Source: Laspinema palackyanum D2a
GTDB taxonomy: Bacteria > Cyanobacteriota > Cyanobacteriia > Cyanobacteriales > Laspinemataceae
Direction: 5' to 3'
Assembly: GCA_025370845.1 (NCBI GenBank)
Contig: JAMXFF010000018.1
Coordinates: 1 to 40,759, forward strand
Length of the DNA: 40,759 nucleotides
Shown here: piece by piece, positions 26,358-33,970 of the stretch
How positions within the stretch are numbered: position 1 is the first letter of the stretch
Layout: each line of letters begins with the position of its first letter
Notes under the pieces: model-generated
What the model was told of the DNA's origin: nothing
What the model saw: the letters and a program-made list of their open reading frames with translations, nothing else
Database searches by the model: none
Position numbers and translations under genes: made by a program

Positions 26358-26458
26358 CAACTGAAGTCGGTTGAAACCGACTAAAAGAAAGTAGTATGGG
26401 TTCATGTTTTTAGTCGGTTTTTAACCGACTTGAGCTATTAGGCGGGGGTTAAAACCCC
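26337..26458. repeat. Palindromic interspersed element overlapping the mfd stop codon
   Basis: Arm 1 (26337-26386) and arm 2 (26408-26458) are near-perfect inverted copies, each holding the self-complementary GGGGTTAAAACCCC and a smaller stem around AGTCGGTT/AACCGACT. The centre is about 21 bp. Arm 1 supplies the mfd TAA (26355-26357). The fold probably also terminates mfd transcription. Cyanobacterial genomes carry many scattered copies of this kind of sequence. Confidence 0.85.
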
Positions 26459-26510
26459 CGCCGGGTGTTGCGACTTAAGGTAGATATTTTTTTAAATTTC
26501 AGGATTTTTT

Positions 26511-26539
26511 TAGTCAAAGCACATAGACTGTATTATAAT
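26511..26539 (+). promoter_or_regulatory. Putative promoter of the first DUF1186-like gene
   Basis: TAGTCA (26511-26516), a 17-bp spacer and TATAAT (26534-26539), 31 bp before the ATG. The -10 box is perfect; the -35 matches four of six positions. Confidence 0.5.
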
Positions 26540-26570
26540 TGCCAGTTAACTCAATCGAAAACGAAAAAAA

Positions 26571-27377
26571 ATGACCCTAGAAACCTATTCACATCCCGTC
26601 AACCAATTGCTCACTTTCGGGGATTGTTTTAAAATTAAGAATGATACCAATTATCTCAAAAAATTTGGGTTTACACCGGAACATATTCCGGAATTGATCC
26701 GCATGGCCGTTGATGAAGAATTAAACTGGGCGGATTCAGATAGTGTAGAAGTATGGGCCCCGGTCCATGCATGGCGATCGCTGGGTCAATTACGAGCACA
26801 GGAGGCGATCGACCCCTTGATTTCCCTATTTGATGAAATAGAGGATATTGATTGGACCAGTACCGAAATGCCCCCCGTTTTTAGACAAATTGGTCCGGCA
26901 GCGATTCCCAGTCTATCGGCGTATTTAGACAAGCCCGGGCTGGATGAATCTCACCTAGAAATCGCTGGGTCTTCCTTAACCGAGATCGGCACAGAATATC
27001 CCGAGGTTCGGGATGAATGTGTCAAAATTTTGACAAAAAGACTGGCAAAATTCGAGGAGAATAACCCGACTTTAAATGGGTATTTAGTATCAAATTTAAT
27101 TGATTTAGATGCAGTAGAATCAGCCTCGCTGATTCAAACTGCTTTTGCTATGGATTGCGTGGATGAGATGGTTGTGGGCGACTGGGATGAGGTCCAGTTC
27201 CTACTGGGTTTGGGGCCCCGGAAAACCCGGGAAAACATCCGTCAAGCTGAGATAGAGCAAAGGATAATGGAATTTTTGAAAAATCGAGGCGATGCTCGTA
27301 ATCAACCCGCTAAGGGGTTTTCCTCTTCTATTAAAAAGACCTCCAAGCAAAAGAGCAAGAAGAAAAAGGGTAAATAG
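26571..27377 (+). CDS. DUF1186/HEAT-like repeat protein, copy 1
   Basis: 268 residues, no signal peptide or membrane segment. The body is helical and HEAT-like, with recurring blocks such as AWRSLGQLRAQEAIDPLISLF, GPAAIPSLSAYL and DAVESASLIQTAF. It ends in a Lys/Ser-rich tail (SIKKTSKQKSKKKKGK). In homologues I recall, such a tail leads into a SEC-C zinc motif, absent here. Family assignment (DUF1186-like) is from memory and moderate. It is one half of a tandem duplication with the gene at 27659-28459, which is very similar along its length. There is no Shine-Dalgarno before this ATG (A-rich only), unlike copy 2. Function unknown. Confidence 0.75.
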   Translation: MTLETYSHPVNQLLTFGDCFKIKNDTNYLKKFGFTPEHIPELIRMAVDEELNWADSDSVEVWAPVHAWRSLGQLRAQEAIDPLISLFDEIEDIDWTSTEMPPVFRQIGPAAIPSLSAYLDKPGLDESHLEIAGSSLTEIGTEYPEVRDECVKILTKRLAKFEENNPTLNGYLVSNLIDLDAVESASLIQTAFAMDCVDEMVVGDWDEVQFLLGLGPRKTRENIRQAEIEQRIMEFLKNRGDARNQPAKGFSSSIKKTSKQKSKKKKGK

Positions 27378-27430
27378 GCTGAATGGGCGATCGTCAAGTC
27401 TGACTCACTCAATCGGGAGAGCCATTTAAG

Positions 27431-27586
27431 TTATCCTTTGACCCCAAATCCCCTATCATCCTGCGGGGTAAAAGTGGGGACAATGGCAAGCAAATCCCTG
27501 AGAATGTCAAGTTGCGATCGCTCTTCGATTGTTTCCAAAGTTTCTAACATGACACTCATCGAAATGGGGAAACCCGGAGTATCTGG
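27431..27586 (-). pseudogene. Truncated 3' copy of the 109-aa gene
   Basis: On the - strand this stretch encodes the last ~51 residues of the protein at 28513-28842 (PGFPISMSVMLETLETIEER ... DDRGFGVKG) with the same stop codon and few changes. Similarity breaks off abruptly at 27586 (matching 28668). It has no start and no 5' half. It is a by-product of the segmental duplication. Confidence 0.85.
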
Positions 27587-27620
27587 CCGTATTTTTTACG
27601 GGAAAGCACCTAACCTGTAT

Positions 27621-27626
27621 TATAAT
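27621..27626 (+). promoter_or_regulatory. Putative -10 box of the second DUF1186-like gene
   Basis: TATAAT in the conserved context CTGTATTATAATTGCCAG, duplicated from 26534. The segment 17 bp upstream (ACGGGA) is a worse -35 than in copy 1. Confidence 0.4.
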
Positions 27627-27658
27627 TGCCAGTTAACTCAATCGACCAGGAGAAAAAC

Positions 27659-28459
27659 ATGATAGTAGAAACCTATTCACATCCCGTTAACCAATTGCTC
27701 ACCTTCGGGGATTGTAGAAAAATTAAAGAGAAGACCAATTATATTGAAAAATTTGGGTTTACACCGGAAGATATTCCGGAATTGATCCGCATGGCTGTTG
27801 ATGAAGAATTAAACTGGGGGGATTCAGAGGGTCTGGAAATATGGGGACCGATTCATGCATGGCGAGCCCTGGGTGAATTACGAGCAGAGGAGGCGATCGA
27901 CCCCTTGATTTCCATCTTTGATGAACTGGAAGATATCGATTGGACCAGTAGCGAAATGCCCATCGTTTTTGGCCAAATTGGTCCGGCAGCGATTCCCAGT
28001 CTAGCAGCCTATTTAGACAAGCAAGGGCCGAATATATATCACCTGTCAGTCGCCGCCTCTTGTTTACGGGGGATCGGCACAGAGCATCCAGATAGTCGAT
28101 ATGAATGTGTCAAAATCATTACGGGAAAACTGGCAAAGTTTCAGGAGAATGACGCAACCTTTAATGCGTTTTTACTTCTGGATTTAGTCAAGTTAAAGGC
28201 AGTAGAATCAGCGCCGGTGATTCAAAGTGCTTTTGCGGCGGATTGCATCGATTACTGGATTATGGGTGACTGGGATGAGGTCCAGTTCCAACTGGGTTTG
28301 GGACCCCGAAAAAACCCGGAAAACATCCGTAAAGCTAAGGTTCACAAAGAGATGATGGAATTGTTGAACAATCAAGGTGAGGCTCAACCCTCTAAGGGGT
28401 TTTCCTCTTCTATTAAAAAGACCTCCCAGAAAAAGAGCAAGAAAAAAAAGCGCAAATAG
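27659..28459 (+). CDS. DUF1186/HEAT-like repeat protein, copy 2
   Basis: 266 residues from the ATG at 27659 (MIVETYSHPVNQLLTFGDC), preceded by CCAGGAG. An upstream in-frame start at 27626 lies in the duplicated promoter region and is unlikely. It aligns with copy 1 end to end, with the same HEAT-like blocks and a Lys-rich tail (KKTSQKKSKKKKRK). Differences are spread along the protein and both frames are intact, so the duplication is not recent and both copies appear to be maintained. Function unknown. Confidence 0.75.
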   Translation: MIVETYSHPVNQLLTFGDCRKIKEKTNYIEKFGFTPEDIPELIRMAVDEELNWGDSEGLEIWGPIHAWRALGELRAEEAIDPLISIFDELEDIDWTSSEMPIVFGQIGPAAIPSLAAYLDKQGPNIYHLSVAASCLRGIGTEHPDSRYECVKIITGKLAKFQENDATFNAFLLLDLVKLKAVESAPVIQSAFAADCIDYWIMGDWDEVQFQLGLGPRKNPENIRKAKVHKEMMELLNNQGEAQPSKGFSSSIKKTSQKKSKKKKRK

Positions 28460-28512
28460 ACTGAATGGGCGATCGCCAAGGTTGACTCACTCAATCGGGA
28501 GATCCATTTAAG

Positions 28513-28842
28513 TTATCCTTTGACCCCAAATCCCCTATCATCCTGCGGGGTAAAATTGGGGACAATGGCAAGCAAATCTCTGAGAATGTCAAGTTGCGAT
28601 CGCTCTTCGATGGTTTCCAAAGTTTCTAACATGACACTCATCGAAACGGGGAAACCCGGGGTATCCGGATGCAGGGGTAAGATTACCGCCACCGCGTTCC
28701 CTGGGTTGATTTCTTTCCTCCAAATGATGGCTTTCTGAGGAATAAACTGTTGTTGCTGCCAACCGCGATCGCGCAGATAATCAGCAACTTGTAACGGTTG
28801 CAGGGTTTGCAGAATATCAATATCTTTAATCGTGACTTTCAT
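28513..28842 (-). CDS. Conserved hypothetical protein, 109 aa
   Basis: 109 residues, soluble, mixed alpha/beta. It starts MKVTIKDIDILQTLQPLQVADYLRDRGW, has a beta-rich middle (AIIWRKEINPGNAVAVILPL) and ends TIEERSQLDILRDLLAIVPN. I have a faint memory of a bacterial family with the pattern L.P.EV..YLR..GW...LPL...ERSQ..I..DL, usually of unknown function and next to other uncharacterised genes. It is last in the run of - strand genes, 102 bp after the dnd-associated-like gene, so co-transcription is possible but not shown. Its 3' end is duplicated at 27431-27586. Confidence 0.7.
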   Translation of the reverse strand: MKVTIKDIDILQTLQPLQVADYLRDRGWQQQQFIPQKAIIWRKEINPGNAVAVILPLHPDTPGFPVSMSVMLETLETIEERSQLDILRDLLAIVPNFTPQDDRGFGVKG

Positions 28843-28944
28843 CCCCTTTCTACTCCGGCAATCCGTTGCAGGATAGTGTCAAGAACATTAACGGTCAATA
28901 TAAGGGGGAGTAAAATCATTGCCCAACCTGCCCCTGTCGTGAGT

Positions 28945-29367
28945 TTAATATCGACTCCCTGTCTCTTCCTCAATAATTTTGAGAATATCATTTTGAATCT
29001 GTCCGCGAGTCTTGCCTTCCCATCGTTCCTTTAACAGTTTAATTCCAGCTTCGGCATATTGAGTGAAGATTTCCACAGCTTCTCCACTGTCTTTTGGTTC
29101 GGGTTGCCCATTGCGTTGGCGAATGGCATTAATTCCAGCTTCAAGGGCAAGACGAACCTCATCATCAACAATTCCGATATAAATCAGATCTTGGCGACCC
29201 TGGGATGGAACGGGTGTAATCTCAGCATTTTTTTTGAGCGCGTAAGCGCCTGCAAAGACATAAGCATCGATTGCCCGACTAAATGTCTGGTTCTTTTTGA
29301 GGACATCCAGATAACCTTTAGCTTCTGGAGTAGGACGGATAGTTCTTTTTGGATCGAAATGTTTCAT
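28945..29367 (-). CDS. Small dnd-associated / DndE-like protein
   Basis: 140 residues. The N-terminal helical part (RPTPEAKGYLDVLKKNQTFS ... DAYVFAGAYALKKN) is followed by a central DEVRLALEAGINAIR and a C-terminal EIFTQYAEAGIKLLKERWEG. This layout resembles the small proteins annotated as DNA phosphorothioation (dnd)-associated protein 4, and more loosely DndE; the match is from memory, so it is an inference. Its ATG overlaps the stop of the DndD-like gene (ATGA, 29364-29367), showing translational coupling. It likely works with that ATPase. No catalytic motif is visible. Confidence 0.6.
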   Translation of the reverse strand: MKHFDPKRTIRPTPEAKGYLDVLKKNQTFSRAIDAYVFAGAYALKKNAEITPVPSQGRQDLIYIGIVDDEVRLALEAGINAIRQRNGQPEPKDSGEAVEIFTQYAEAGIKLLKERWEGKTRGQIQNDILKIIEEETGSRY

Positions 29368-31301
29368 TCTTCTACCTCAACGGTGGAAGAATCTTCAGAA
29401 TCACCCAGTCGCCTGATTTTAAAAATTTTGGCAACATGAGGCCGAATTTCTTGTAATAAAGCAGAAGGAAAATCTCTATCCGTTGCTAAAACTATGACTT
29501 GGGAGGGAAATTGGGTAAGATATTTAACCACATTTTGGTGATGTTCCGTATCAAAGTGACCAAATGGCGTATCCATAATTAAGGGCGCAGCAGTCCCCGA
29601 TGCTAAATTTAATCCCGCAATAAACGCAAAAGCCAGTGCTTCTTTTTCCCCCGCACTTAAGGTTTCCGGGTCGATAATTTCACCGGCTGCATTTTCAATC
29701 CCCAGGGTATAGTCGGAACGAATTTTCACCCCTCTATACTCGGTGGATTTATTGGTAACCCGCAGATGAATTTCTGAAGTGTGCGCTTCTATCGTTTGTT
29801 TTCGCTCGCCAATCCGCCACTCAATCAGCTCACCGGCTGCCTGATAAAGGCCCCTGGCTAATTTTGCTTGCCGTGCTAAGGTTGCGGTTTCCTTATCTTG
29901 ACCCGCCAATTTCTCTCTTTCTCGCCGAAGTTTATCCTCCTCTTTTTTGAAATTTTCCCTCTCGTTATTCAGTCGTTCTATTTTAGATTTTTTTAGTTCG
30001 GTACTCTGTTCAGATTGGCCTACTTTTTTCCAAATATCTTGGGCTTCTTCATCATTGATTCCTTTAGTTTCTCCTTTAAGTCGATATATGGATTGCTGGG
30101 TCTCTTCTAGTTCTTCTTCCAAGCCATCACGCTTTAATAAAACTTCCTGAAAATTAGGAGTTTTAAATTCCGAAAGATTCACTAATCGCTTGCTCAAATT
30201 ATCTTGTTGAAGCGCCTCCTTCGTTAAACTACCTGTGCTTTCTTCTAAACGGTCCAGTTCTTTTCGCAGATATTCACGAGCGCTGTCATCTATGCAACGA
30301 CCACAGACACATATTTCTTCTTTTAACAATTCTTGAAGTAGGGAAAGCGAACCCGAACGCCTTGCTGTGGTAAAAGAATTTCTTTGCATCCCGTCGGCAA
30401 TTTCTACGACAAATTCTCGCATTAGTGGAATTGATGCTTGCCTTAATGCGGTTTCCAGGGCAGTTTCCGAGTGGTTTAAATTCTCTTTTAAACGAGCTTC
30501 TTCGCGTTCTAATTTTTTTAATTCCTCTAATTTCCCGCGAAGACCCTCAAGTTGACTCGCTCTTTCTTTTATATCGGAGAGGATATCAACTTCGTTCTTA
30601 TAGTCTTGTTCTGCTATTTCTAGTTGTCGTAAAGTAGCTTCTATATTATCTTGAATAGTTTGTAAGCTATCAGTTATTTTTTTAAGACTCTCATTAGATG
30701 ATGCAACTTTGGCGAGGTTTCTGTCAATAGCTTGCATGGCTTTCTCTGCATCCTCTCTGAGGTTTCTTAGCTCGGGAATACCGAGAATGCGCTCGATAGC
30801 ATTGCGCGTTTCTTCTGTATGCATCCTCTTAGCATAGCGTTTTATTTCTACCCCATCAAAAAAGAAGAATTCTTTACATGACCTAGGTAAAATTTCTTCT
30901 ATCCGTTCACGGGAGTCGGTAGTTTCTAGGCCATTTTTATAAACGGTGGGTTCATCAATTTGAACAACCGGGGTCGTTCCTTTAATTTTTCTTTTAGCTA
31001 TTCGACTAATATCATAAGTATTACCATTGCGTTCAAGAATGAGATTTACTAATAGCTCAGTCTCAGGATTATTTTTAACCTCAATTCGATTAAATCGAGT
31101 GAGTAATTCAGTGGTAGGTAGAGCATCGCTCCCGTAGAGACACCACTGAATTGCTTCTAAAATAGATGTTTTTCCAAATCCATTTTGACCAAAAATAATC
31201 CAGATCGGCTTTTCGGAATTGCTAGTGAAGTCTATTACTTTATCTTGATAGCACCTCCAGTTTCTCATTCGCAGTCTTTTCAGATTAAAATCCATAACCA
31301 T
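29364..31301 (-). CDS. DndD-like SMC/Rad50-type ATPase
   Basis: About 645 residues from the ATG at 31301 (MVMDFNLKRLRMRNWRCYQD), which has GAGGA upstream; a longer frame to 31346 exists. Walker A GQNGFGKTS (38-46) and ILEAIQWCLYG are typical of DndD and Rad50. A long coiled coil follows, broken near residue 332 by CVCGRC, a Cys hook like the Rad50 zinc hook. A second coil leads to the signature TLSAGEKEALAFAF (about 547) and Walker B APLIMDTPFGHFD (about 575), with the D-loop and ATDRD after it. DndD belongs to the phosphorothioation machinery; related ATPases occur in several defence systems. It overlaps both neighbours. No dndC or dndB is adjacent. Confidence 0.85.
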   Translation of the reverse strand: MVMDFNLKRLRMRNWRCYQDKVIDFTSNSEKPIWIIFGQNGFGKTSILEAIQWCLYGSDALPTTELLTRFNRIEVKNNPETELLVNLILERNGNTYDISRIAKRKIKGTTPVVQIDEPTVYKNGLETTDSRERIEEILPRSCKEFFFFDGVEIKRYAKRMHTEETRNAIERILGIPELRNLREDAEKAMQAIDRNLAKVASSNESLKKITDSLQTIQDNIEATLRQLEIAEQDYKNEVDILSDIKERASQLEGLRGKLEELKKLEREEARLKENLNHSETALETALRQASIPLMREFVVEIADGMQRNSFTTARRSGSLSLLQELLKEEICVCGRCIDDSAREYLRKELDRLEESTGSLTKEALQQDNLSKRLVNLSEFKTPNFQEVLLKRDGLEEELEETQQSIYRLKGETKGINDEEAQDIWKKVGQSEQSTELKKSKIERLNNERENFKKEEDKLRREREKLAGQDKETATLARQAKLARGLYQAAGELIEWRIGERKQTIEAHTSEIHLRVTNKSTEYRGVKIRSDYTLGIENAAGEIIDPETLSAGEKEALAFAFIAGLNLASGTAAPLIMDTPFGHFDTEHHQNVVKYLTQFPSQVIVLATDRDFPSALLQEIRPHVAKIFKIRRLGDSEDSSTVEVEE

Positions 31302-31497
31302 TATTATCCTCAGTAAATAACTCAGGTGAATCCGTATAGCGTTCAATCATTTCGACTAAAATAGGACTCATTTTGCGATTTTGCAAAATGATTTTTTCTT
31401 TCTCTTTCTCGATAGCCTCTTTGAGAAGACTCAGCGGGATTTCATATTTTTCAGCCAGTTCTTGAAGTTTTTCTTCCATTGTATCTCTATCTACCAT
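31285..31497 (-). CDS. Small charged helical protein between helicase and DndD-like ATPase
   Basis: 70 residues, predicted mostly helical and highly charged (EEKLQELAEKYEIPLSLLKE, IEKEKEKIILQ). The ATG is embedded in the helicase stop (ATGGTAG), and the 3' end overlaps the start of the DndD-like gene by 17 bp, so the three genes are translationally coupled. A second start at 31479 (MEEKLQ) is possible. No family was recognised. Its place between two ATPases suggests a subunit or adaptor. Confidence 0.7.
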   Translation of the reverse strand: MVDRDTMEEKLQELAEKYEIPLSLLKEAIEKEKEKIILQNRKMSPILVEMIERYTDSPELFTEDNNGYGF

Positions 31498-32993
31498 AAA
31501 TCTGAATAAGAAAGCCCATAAGGAGCCAATTCAGGAGCCAACTTTGTAATCACGGATGTCCGATTGCGGGCGGCATGGGCAAAATACTTGACTCGGTTAA
31601 TTTCCGGGGCAATCAGTTCGGGTGGATAATCTCCGAGTGGGGGAACGACCAGAAAATCAACAACTTTGGCAATAGATTTTTCAGGAGCAATCCGCAGAAT
31701 TCTCCCGCGACGCTGGATAAACTGACGTTCGGAGGAATCGTTCGCCAGGATAATGGCCAGGTTAGCTGCTGGGACATCTACCCCTTCATCTAAACATTTT
31801 ACTGCAACTAAGGCATCCAGTTCGCCCCGAGCAAAGGCAGCCAGAATAGGTTGCCGATCGCCGTCAATAGAAGAGTATCTCGCCACGCGAAATCCCTGCT
31901 GGCCTAACTTTGCACTGATGCGGGTCGCTTGGTCGATATCAGCACAATAGATTATCCCTCGACGCGGTGGATGATCCCTGATCACTTGATTAAAACTAGA
32001 AAACTTCTCTTCCGCCGCTTTGACAATTTGGGCGCGTTGAATCATCAAGCGCTGTGCCTGTTTAAACGCTTCTTCTTGGGTCATCTGCGATCGCCCTTTT
32101 GCGAAACTGCGCCCTCCTCCCCGGGGGTCTTCGCCTTGATTTCTGCCTAATAGTCGTCCGATTTTTACCGTTAATTCTCTATATTCAAAATACTCATCAG
32201 CCGTTAACCGCGCCATATAAACATGATAATCATATTCCGAGAGTATCCCGGCTGCGATCGCTTCTTCTAACTTAAACTCATAAACAACACCTCCAAAATA
32301 TTCCAGCAGTAAATTACTGCCTTCTTCATCGTAAGGACGAATGGGGGTCGCTGATAAACCCAGACGATACCGAAAATCTGATCTAAGAATACGTCGGTAA
32401 ACCTCTGCACCCGTTCCATGCACTTCATCAGCAATCAATAACGAACGCAACGGCAAACCCCCCGCATCTGCAATCAAATTTTCTACCCTAGATTTGGAAA
32501 GTTCGCTATAACTGCCTACGATAATAATCGGCAATCTTTCCCGAGGAAACTGTCTATGATTCACCAAATGCAGTTTCCTGAATAGAGGTTCCATCCATTG
32601 TTCAGCTTTGCCTGTAACAGTTAAGGCGGGTCGAAATGTAGTCCGGGTCGAAAGTTCATCAACCCATTGCCTGACAATCTCGTTTGTGGGCGCTCCAATA
32701 ACAATCAGATCGAGAGATTCCAGACTAGCGGCACAAGCTAAACCACTAATAGTTTTACCCGTTCCCGTTGCCATTGCTAAGATTCCACAGTGACCCGCAG
32801 ATGTCCAAGCGTTTAAGGCATCGACTTGGCGCTGCTTCAATTCGACGTTGAGAAAGCGTGGGTCTGTAGCGTTTGTAACTAAAGACGCCCCCTTGATTGG
32901 TTGCACTGCTGTCATTCGAGAACGTCTCCAGGCATGAGTCAATCCCCAATCTAATATCCTGGAATTATAAGCTGTTTTGGCTTTACTGGTCAT
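31491..32993 (-). CDS. SF2 DEAD/DEAH (ResIII/XPB-like) helicase
   Basis: 500 residues. Q-like motif VELKQRQVDALNAW, Walker A MATGTGKT (about 75-82), DEVH box (about 190), GLSATPIRP (about 212), and in the second RecA domain GIIYCADIDQA, VAVKCLDEGVDVP and QFIQRRGRILR (about 429). This is the XPB/ResIII group. Helicases of this sort occur as the putative restriction component beside dnd genes, which fits the DndD-like gene downstream. No nuclease domain is seen in the N- or C-terminal parts. The upstream frame hits a stop within 20 codons and offers no better start, so the N-terminus is probably complete. Confidence 0.88.
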   Translation of the reverse strand: MTSKAKTAYNSRILDWGLTHAWRRSRMTAVQPIKGASLVTNATDPRFLNVELKQRQVDALNAWTSAGHCGILAMATGTGKTISGLACAASLESLDLIVIGAPTNEIVRQWVDELSTRTTFRPALTVTGKAEQWMEPLFRKLHLVNHRQFPRERLPIIIVGSYSELSKSRVENLIADAGGLPLRSLLIADEVHGTGAEVYRRILRSDFRYRLGLSATPIRPYDEEGSNLLLEYFGGVVYEFKLEEAIAAGILSEYDYHVYMARLTADEYFEYRELTVKIGRLLGRNQGEDPRGGGRSFAKGRSQMTQEEAFKQAQRLMIQRAQIVKAAEEKFSSFNQVIRDHPPRRGIIYCADIDQATRISAKLGQQGFRVARYSSIDGDRQPILAAFARGELDALVAVKCLDEGVDVPAANLAIILANDSSERQFIQRRGRILRIAPEKSIAKVVDFLVVPPLGDYPPELIAPEINRVKYFAHAARNRTSVITKLAPELAPYGLSYSDLW

Positions 32994-33169
32994 CAGAGAA
33001 AATACTGGAAGCGCAAGCAGGAGTAAGAGGAGTCTCCTGCTCTCTGACTACAAGGGTTGAAGGGGCGATCGCCTCTCCAATGATTGTTGCCAATTTCTTC
33101 CATCGTCGCCACCTCATGAATCCGGGAAACGCTATAGTGCGATCGCCAACTTCGACTCGCTCAAAGGGC

Positions 33170-33805
33170 CTAAGTCAGCGTTGGGGTGGGTTGATCGCTC
33201 CCCAAATACCCTCTTAGCGGTTCTAACAAAATCCCTAAAATTTTATCCACCTCTTTAATATAATACTCCACCGAATCAATAAACACCGTCTTTTCTTGCA
33301 GTTTTAAAAACTTCCAGGTTGTTCCACTGGTAACGATTCCATAAATGGTATTGATCTCATTTTCAGCACGTTGGTTGAACAATTGCGCTCCCACCATACT
33401 GGCGACGCATTGTCCTAATCCTCCAATAATATTTTCATTCTTTGCTTCAGCGATCGCAATGATAGGAGCGGTGATAAAATACTGTTCCGGTGAACCGCTG
33501 ACCATAAAATCACAATAGCCTTGCAATCCTAATGATTCCTCCACGTTAAACTCATTTCCTGAAAACAAGCTCACTTGATAGTTGACTTGCCGTCTAACTT
33601 CAGCTAAAATTGGAGCAATCAGTAGTTCTGACCGCGCTTTTTCGGTATTAATCGCGGTGGCTAACGGAATATATTCCTGTAAAATTGTCTGTAAGATTTC
33701 TGAGGGTGACACGCCCTCTACCCTGGCAAATAAATTTTGTCCTTCATTCAAGGTTAAGTTGAAGGCAGTTTTGGCTTTGGACAATGTAAAATTACTGTAG
33801 GCCAT
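33170..33805 (-). CDS. PD-(D/E)XK nuclease-like protein (cyanobacterial family)
   Basis: About 211 residues from MAYSNFTLSKAKTAFNLTL at 33805; the open frame runs up to 33916, but family members begin near this point. SEKARSELLIAPILAEVRRQ-type text (here TEKARSELLIAPILAEVRRQ) supplies the early Glu. GYCDFMVSGSPEQ (about residue 100) supplies the Asp, and IIAIAEAKNENIIGGLGQC (about 119) gives the E-x-K and following Gln. This is the core of the restriction-endonuclease-like fold. The family is widespread in cyanobacteria and uncharacterised to my knowledge. It is 176 bp upstream of the helicase on the same strand. It could provide the missing nuclease, or be an unrelated neighbour. Confidence 0.75.
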   Translation of the reverse strand: MAYSNFTLSKAKTAFNLTLNEGQNLFARVEGVSPSEILQTILQEYIPLATAINTEKARSELLIAPILAEVRRQVNYQVSLFSGNEFNVEESLGLQGYCDFMVSGSPEQYFITAPIIAIAEAKNENIIGGLGQCVASMVGAQLFNQRAENEINTIYGIVTSGTTWKFLKLQEKTVFIDSVEYYIKEVDKILGILLEPLRGYLGSDQPTPTLT

Positions 33806-33970
33806 TGGTTGAGATTCAGAATTTTGCCGAGGGTCATCAATCAGGGTAGGGTTGTGGGGTTTCATAAAACTTGAGTCAACCCGTCCAGATTGCATAAGAT
33901 TTTCTAATGATAGCACCCTGGGGTCTATCCTGGCCTTAAAATCTCTTTTGTAACCGGGCGGGTGTCATCT

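Follow-up and report, generated by a model that had tools for sequence, protein, structure and literature searches.

The Pbe operon and its helicase-only PbeA

We analyzed a 40,759-nt stretch of the cyanobacterium Laspinema palackyanum D2a (assembly GCA_025370845.1, contig JAMXFF010000018.1, positions 1 to 40,759; hereafter the window), in which four minus-strand open reading frames (ORFs) lie at 31491-32993, 31285-31497, 29364-31346, and 28945-29367. An initial annotation, made from the sequence alone, had described them as a Dnd-like operon of four overlapping genes without the genes for sulfur transfer to DNA. The coordinates and sequence bear out the overlaps, which are 7, 17, and 4 bp between stop and start (the second counted from an ATG at 31301), and Pfam and NCBIfam searches agree with the domains proposed: a helicase, a DndD-like ATPase, and weak similarity to a dnd-associated family. 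Three points were absent from that annotation: the operon belongs to an already named system, PbeABCD (also "CxC ABC-ATPase-DndE"); its PbeA lacks a nuclease domain; and dndBCDE lie elsewhere in the genome.

The ATPase matches the PADLOC model for PbeC (PDLC02726) at 3.1e-253 and the Pfam family AAA_23 at 9e-26. Against TIGR03185, the DndD model, it scores 187.4 bits (4e-55) where the cut-off is 245.85, so it does not score as a DndD equivalog. An ATG at 31301 is the likely start of pbeC (29364-31301), and a TTG at 31346 is possible. Walker A, LSAGE signature, and Walker B residues are invariant across six aligned PbeC homologs, as are C331, C333, G334, R335, and C336 of the hook, whose C-x-C-G-R-C codons lie at 30294-30311 on the minus strand. 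PADLOC and the alignment together identify a DndD-related coiled-coil ABC ATPase with a CxC hook. The 70-amino acid (aa) product of pbeB (31285-31497) matches Pfam Sp-DndD (PF20306) at E 0.0057, below cut-off. Its relatives share 62-65% identity over about 50 aa, and in 13 of the 14 loci tested one directly precedes pbeC; position and conservation thus mark it as the small protein encoded between helicase and ATPase. Adjoining the ATPase gene on its other side, pbeD (28945-29367) encodes a DndE-like partner of 140 aa that matches TIGR04062 (dnd_assoc_4) at 1.7e-4, below cut-off. PbeD is predicted to have the DndE fold. We assigned it to DndE by this predicted fold because comparison of sequence profiles was not significant, which was also true of the dnd_assoc_4 type against DndE; a Foldseek search with PbeD returned no match below E 0.001.

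The first gene of the operon, pbeA (31491-32993), encodes a 500-aa superfamily 2 (SF2; ResIII/DEAD) helicase with Pfam matches to ResIII (2e-15) and Helicase_C (1e-14). Its match to the PADLOC PbeA model (2.8e-121) places helicase residues 48-481 on profile positions 249-668 of 672, and its match to TIGR04095 (1.2e-93) is below that model's cut-off. A profile built from four relatives with the HKD nuclease domain (683-687 aa) matches the window protein only from profile position 251 onward, and the first 45 residues of window PbeA do not align to it. The N-termini of these relatives carry a phospholipase D (PLD)-like domain with an H-x-K ... G-S-x-N motif, which we take to be the HKD motif. 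Pfam PLDc_2 was detected in all four relatives scanned (E 9e-7 to 3e-5, two above and two below cut-off) and was not reported by the Pfam scan of window PbeA. Where the description of PbeABCD in PMC6459918 combines a PLD (HKD) domain with an SF2 helicase in PbeA, the window protein has the helicase and lacks the HKD, although the remaining intact PbeA proteins of its subfamily retain this domain. A tblastn search extended to E 10, covering the region before pbeA and the rest of the window, detected no HKD remnant, only chance-like pieces of which the best had E 0.25. A displacing repeat as the cause of the loss is unsupported, as the leader and first codons of pbeA have a single 26-bp match elsewhere in the genome.

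Pfam scans of 28 window ORFs, made up of the 70-aa ORF and 27 of the 44 that reach at least 100 aa, revealed neither a dndA/B/C-like gene, as the initial annotation had stated for the vicinity, nor a methyltransferase. The names DndF, DndG, and DndH do not occur among the 25 best NCBIfam and PADLOC matches of each operon protein. The window operon holds no DndC (PAPS-reductase-like) and is not a canonical DndBCDE operon; a different contig, C54, carries the single DndC match over cut-off in this genome.

Dnd genes and Pbe loci in this genome and across Cyanobacteria

In this genome (7.41 Mb in 116 contigs), dndC lies at C54:49009-50343 (713 bits), surrounded by dndD (677 bits), dndE (140), and dndB (451), all over NCBIfam cut-offs, with a dnd_assoc_4 protein (187 bits) nearby. 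Three different DGQHR/DndB-like proteins (391, 355, and 553 aa) are encoded beside this one dndC (L006 10694-14887). The genes for phosphorothioate (PT) modification that PMC6459918 associates with PbeABCD are thus present in the same cell without adjoining the window operon. The initial annotation, which had called for such a genome-wide search, had left two options. Our findings fit one of them, in which a restriction half works together with a dndBC located remotely; the other, a self-contained module reusing Dnd parts, is not needed, though still conceivable. C54 also encodes a second Pbe operon, consisting of a 465-aa helicase, a 97-aa small protein, and a 690-aa CxC ATPase. The two PbeC proteins of the genome are about 25% identical, so the window copy is not a recent duplication.

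Pbe of the C54 type and dndC occur together across the phylum. Among 386 cyanobacterial genomes, dndC exceeded the cut-off in 94 and C54-type PbeC was found in 92 (E<=1e-100): 89 genomes have both, 5 have dndC only, and 3 have this PbeC only. Within the order of the host (105 genomes, a total read from listings), the corresponding numbers are 88, 5, and 2, with 10 genomes remaining. The conserved locus of the order also lacks the nuclease domain. Twenty C54-type loci were fetched, in which PbeA was complete in 15, incomplete at the end of the stretch in 1, and not found within range in 4; all 15 complete proteins are without HKD. Seven further stretches of the order added one complete PbeA without HKD (G115) and five with no PbeA in range. 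With the C54 copy of the window genome, HKD is missing from 17 of 17 complete C54-type PbeA proteins of the order. In 84 of the 90 genomes of the order with C54-type PbeC, the search found no ORF in the PbeA size range (668-757 aa) that carries an HKD. Outside the order, both loci with the same PbeC type (G231 and G209) encode a PbeA with HKD whose helicase part is 71% and 62% identical, respectively, to that of C54; the more distant locus of G139 also has an HKD-bearing PbeA. Sequence comparison indicates that the helicase-only PbeA of the conserved locus is strongly constrained (pooled ratio of nonsynonymous to synonymous proportions, pN/pS, 0.10, against 0.04 for PbeC; five genomes of the genus, 10 pairs).

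The seventh of the further stretches (G033 C94; L103 4445-8394) contains a third Pbe type, in which a 655-aa HKD-helicase adjoins a 388-aa CxC ATPase-like ORF, about 5 kb from dndC; G033 has a C54-type operon as well. HKD-like domains are found in other genomes on ORFs of about 1050-1150 aa and on a few of 230-360 aa. In many cyanobacteria, among them G120, G112, and G118, domains about 40% identical to the HKD of PbeA sit on other ORFs, mostly of about 1050-1150 aa.

PbeC of the window type is rarer, occurring in 10 of the 386 genomes, the window's included (E<=1e-50). A scan of one genome per species gave 12 loci (Aphanothece, Chroococcus, two Spirulina, and eight Microcystis), a lower bound since the scan used short exact patterns and may omit the window's own record. 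In four of the 12, none of them from Microcystis, the stretch also contains dndC, whose product is 62-69% identical to DndC of the window genome. In one of these genera, Spirulina sp. CS-785/01 (L058 4910-5872) has an HNH endonuclease gene that overlaps the pbeD-like gene, between Pbe and dndC. No dnd gene was present in the stretches fetched for the Microcystis loci or for the G031 locus; in 7 of 7 Microcystis-group genomes searched, dndC lies elsewhere, on another contig or more than 1 Mb away.

Such separation might point to a stand-alone defense or DNA-surveillance module that is independent of PT marks. The seven Microcystis-group genomes speak for this, as does the survey in PMC6459918, in which 320 of 553 PbeAC pairs had no dndCD less than 10 kb away and methyltransferases were near 155 of these 320. 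Nevertheless, the window ORFs scanned include no methyltransferase, and the characterized relative is reported to be inactive without PT (PMC6459918). The initial annotation had tied its proposal of a separate module to the lack of a named system and of a dndBC cluster accompanying every homolog. The ATPase and helicase do match the named PbeC and PbeA in PADLOC, and 9 of the 10 genomes with the window type, rather than all, hold dndC. That co-occurrence also tells against independence from PT, though it is no proof of dependence because 93 of the 105 sampled genomes of the order have dndC in any case. We regard independence from PT as rather improbable.

For the window type, 16 distinct loci, the window included, remained after removal of six that had been fetched twice. 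Seven of them encode an intact PbeA with HKD and one, the window, an intact PbeA that lacks it; in 5 PbeA is internally deleted, and in 3 it is absent or reduced to its tail. PbeC is open in 15 and cut by a contig end in the other. Five Microcystis loci share one internal deletion that removes about residues 28 to 542 of PbeA, Chroococcus keeps only a C-terminal tail, and pbeA was not found in the Spirulina subsalsa locus or in one further Microcystis locus. The remnant genes of the five deleted loci differ evenly among codon positions (100, 115, and 127), as against 0, 0, and 23 in four loci with intact pbeA. For pbeC and pbeD, pooled pN/pS is 0.37 and 0.16 in the five deleted loci plus one without pbeA, and 0.34 and 0.33 in the four intact loci; the underlying Nei-Gojobori pairwise counts share branches, so pairs are not independent. 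On these counts the loci with a pseudogenized pbeA keep pbeC and pbeD under constraint, and the Microcystis operons retain intact pbeB, pbeC, and pbeD genes beside a decaying remnant. The Microcystis PbeC tree mixes pbeA-deleted with pbeA-intact loci, and recombination may well have moved pbeC between pbeA backgrounds.

The repeated loss of pbeA in these relatives raises the alternative that the window operon is itself decaying: deletion of the HKD would already have broken PbeA, and the other genes would be disappearing as well or be retained for some different reason. Several points speak against this. Its helicase is open over 500 aa, retains its motifs, and is 51-54% identical to intact relatives; pbeB, pbeC, and pbeD are intact; and the genus keeps a helicase-only PbeA under strong constraint at its conserved Pbe locus. 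We consider decay unlikely.

The insertion site and neighboring genes

The window copy occupies a site that differs among relatives. In G004, of the same genus, the flanks are homologous up to 28854 and from 33168 and lie about 30 bp apart, which defines the indel as the four genes plus a short leader and tail, an inserted cassette of 4.3 kb with approximate limits 28855-33167. G006 has no pbe genes, no PD-(D/E)xK gene, and no HEAT genes at the matching site, and in G007 mfd is almost directly beside the hydrolase gene, leaving the site nearly empty. Among eight genomes of the genus compared, only that of the window has this PbeC type, and the copy was probably acquired laterally. More broadly, the interval between mfd and an alpha/beta hydrolase gene (26358-33961) is a site of variable content, which in G004 holds other small genes.

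A minus-strand gene at 33170-33916, outside the cassette, encodes a PD-(D/E)xK-like protein (PADLOC PDLC01472, 4e-50). It is on the same strand as the operon, with 176 bp between the genes, and could be thought to supply the missing nuclease as part of a five-gene restriction unit. Yet the 3' end of this gene is present in G004 without pbe genes, two homologs are encoded elsewhere in the window genome, and no homolog occurs among the proteins predicted from the other Pbe loci we fetched. We accordingly reject it as a likely replacement nuclease and regard a five-gene unit as highly improbable.

On the other side, also outside the module, a minus-strand gene at 28513-28842 encodes a 109-aa protein that matches the N-terminus of the PADLOC candidate PDC-M02B (PDLC04303, 4.5e-27, residues 1-94 of 383). 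Homologous DNA is present in G004 and G006 without pbe genes. This free-standing counterpart of the PDC-M02B N-terminal quarter is an intact 109-aa ORF in G000 and G004 and is possibly a stand-alone adaptor domain. It falls within a tandem duplication (26504-28842; period about 1.08 kb, blocks 84-94% identical) with two HEAT-like (HEAT_PBS/DUF1186) proteins, after each of which comes the PDC-M02B-like N-terminal gene, either as a copy or as a remnant. G004 has three HEAT copies.

A candidate nuclease-free partner of PT modification

From these comparisons we favor, with some reservation, the reading that the window operon is a second, probably laterally acquired PbeABCD copy, directed against viruses, that acts in trans and independently of cleavage, lacks the HKD, and relies on remote dnd genes. 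In such a system, PbeC and PbeD would form an ATP-driven clamp that scans DNA, and self would be distinguished by the PT mark that the chromosomal Dnd enzymes produce in trans. Where virus DNA bears no mark, the clamp, aided by PbeB and by PbeA as a translocating helicase, would block replication instead of cutting. We liken this mechanism to that of the archaeal Pbe system, whose defense is reported to need PT and to leave viral DNA uncleaved (PMC6459918).

Several points weigh against this reading. Pairing with dndC in cis, seen in 4 of the 12 scanned loci, may be the older arrangement, and the co-occurrence of the window subfamily with dndC is uninformative against the order's background. 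At the conserved locus, linkage is not constant: a dndB- or dndC-type gene shares the fetched stretch in 10 of 17 loci, and among the other seven, at least G008 and G056 have dndC on another contig or far off. Within the window subfamily pbeA is broken, residual, or missing in 8 of 16 loci, and intact with HKD in 7, so that the short PbeA of the window, whose nearest homologs found are only 51-54% identical, could be an early stage of decay. Finally, PMC10853773 argues for DNA cleavage, since the HKD is present in most systems.

The archaeal deletions described in PMC6459918 (loss of pbeA leaves weak resistance; pbeB, pbeC, and pbeD are absolutely needed) match the Microcystis pattern of retained pbeBCD and decayed pbeA. 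We speculate, more tentatively than for the trans-acting copy itself, that Pbe in this order is a nuclease-free, non-cleaving partner of PT. The HKD would have been lost at the base of the order and again in the window lineage, and in Microcystis selection would still preserve PbeBCD as a unit without a working PbeA. On this view the true sensor, and the clamp that stops unmarked DNA from replicating, would be PbeBCD, with PbeA an auxiliary motor carrying an optional nuclease.

The cited papers disagree on whether Pbe stops virus without cutting (PMC6459918) or whether the HKD means cutting (PMC10853773), and natural HKD-less operons under purifying selection offer test material for this dispute, the cyanobacterial forms being in effect a natural HKD deletion. 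A further premise is affected: PMC8569181 starts from the view that Cyanobacteria have no PT restriction systems and infers that dnd originated in an antioxidant role, and its main text does not contain the string "pbe"; the presence of PbeC in 89 of 94 dndC-bearing cyanobacterial genomes weakens that premise. Relative to the text of these papers available to us, the PbeC/dndC co-occurrence counts, the order-wide absence of HKD, its loss in the window subfamily, and the retention of pbeBCD in Microcystis appear to be additions. Among the titles and abstract openings listed, we found no description of HKD-less PbeA in cyanobacteria. The window copy itself is a modest finding, a known kind of system in variant form; the order-wide pattern is of greater interest.

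Compared with the canonical DndD-DndE core, the window operon has a related ATPase and a DndE-fold partner, but lacks DndC and DndB, and its ATPase falls below the DndD cut-off and bears a CxC hook. With the CxC ABC-ATPase-DndE systems as presented in PMC10853773 it shares that hook, the predicted DndE-fold partner, the small protein, and the SF2 helicase, and it departs from them in the HKD, missing here and in the 17 conserved-locus PbeA proteins of the order. The closest description is that of PbeABCD from H. jeotgali A29 (PMC6459918), which has the same order PbeA-PbeB-PbeC-PbeD, the Res/helicase domains, the AAA_23 ATPase, and small proteins of similar size (PbeB 66 versus 70 aa in the window; PbeD 152 versus 140 aa). 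The archaeal operon lies beside dndCDEA, whereas that of the window is on a different contig from dnd, in a bacterial host whose genome carries a second Pbe operon, and encodes a PbeA without the PLD (HKD) domain.

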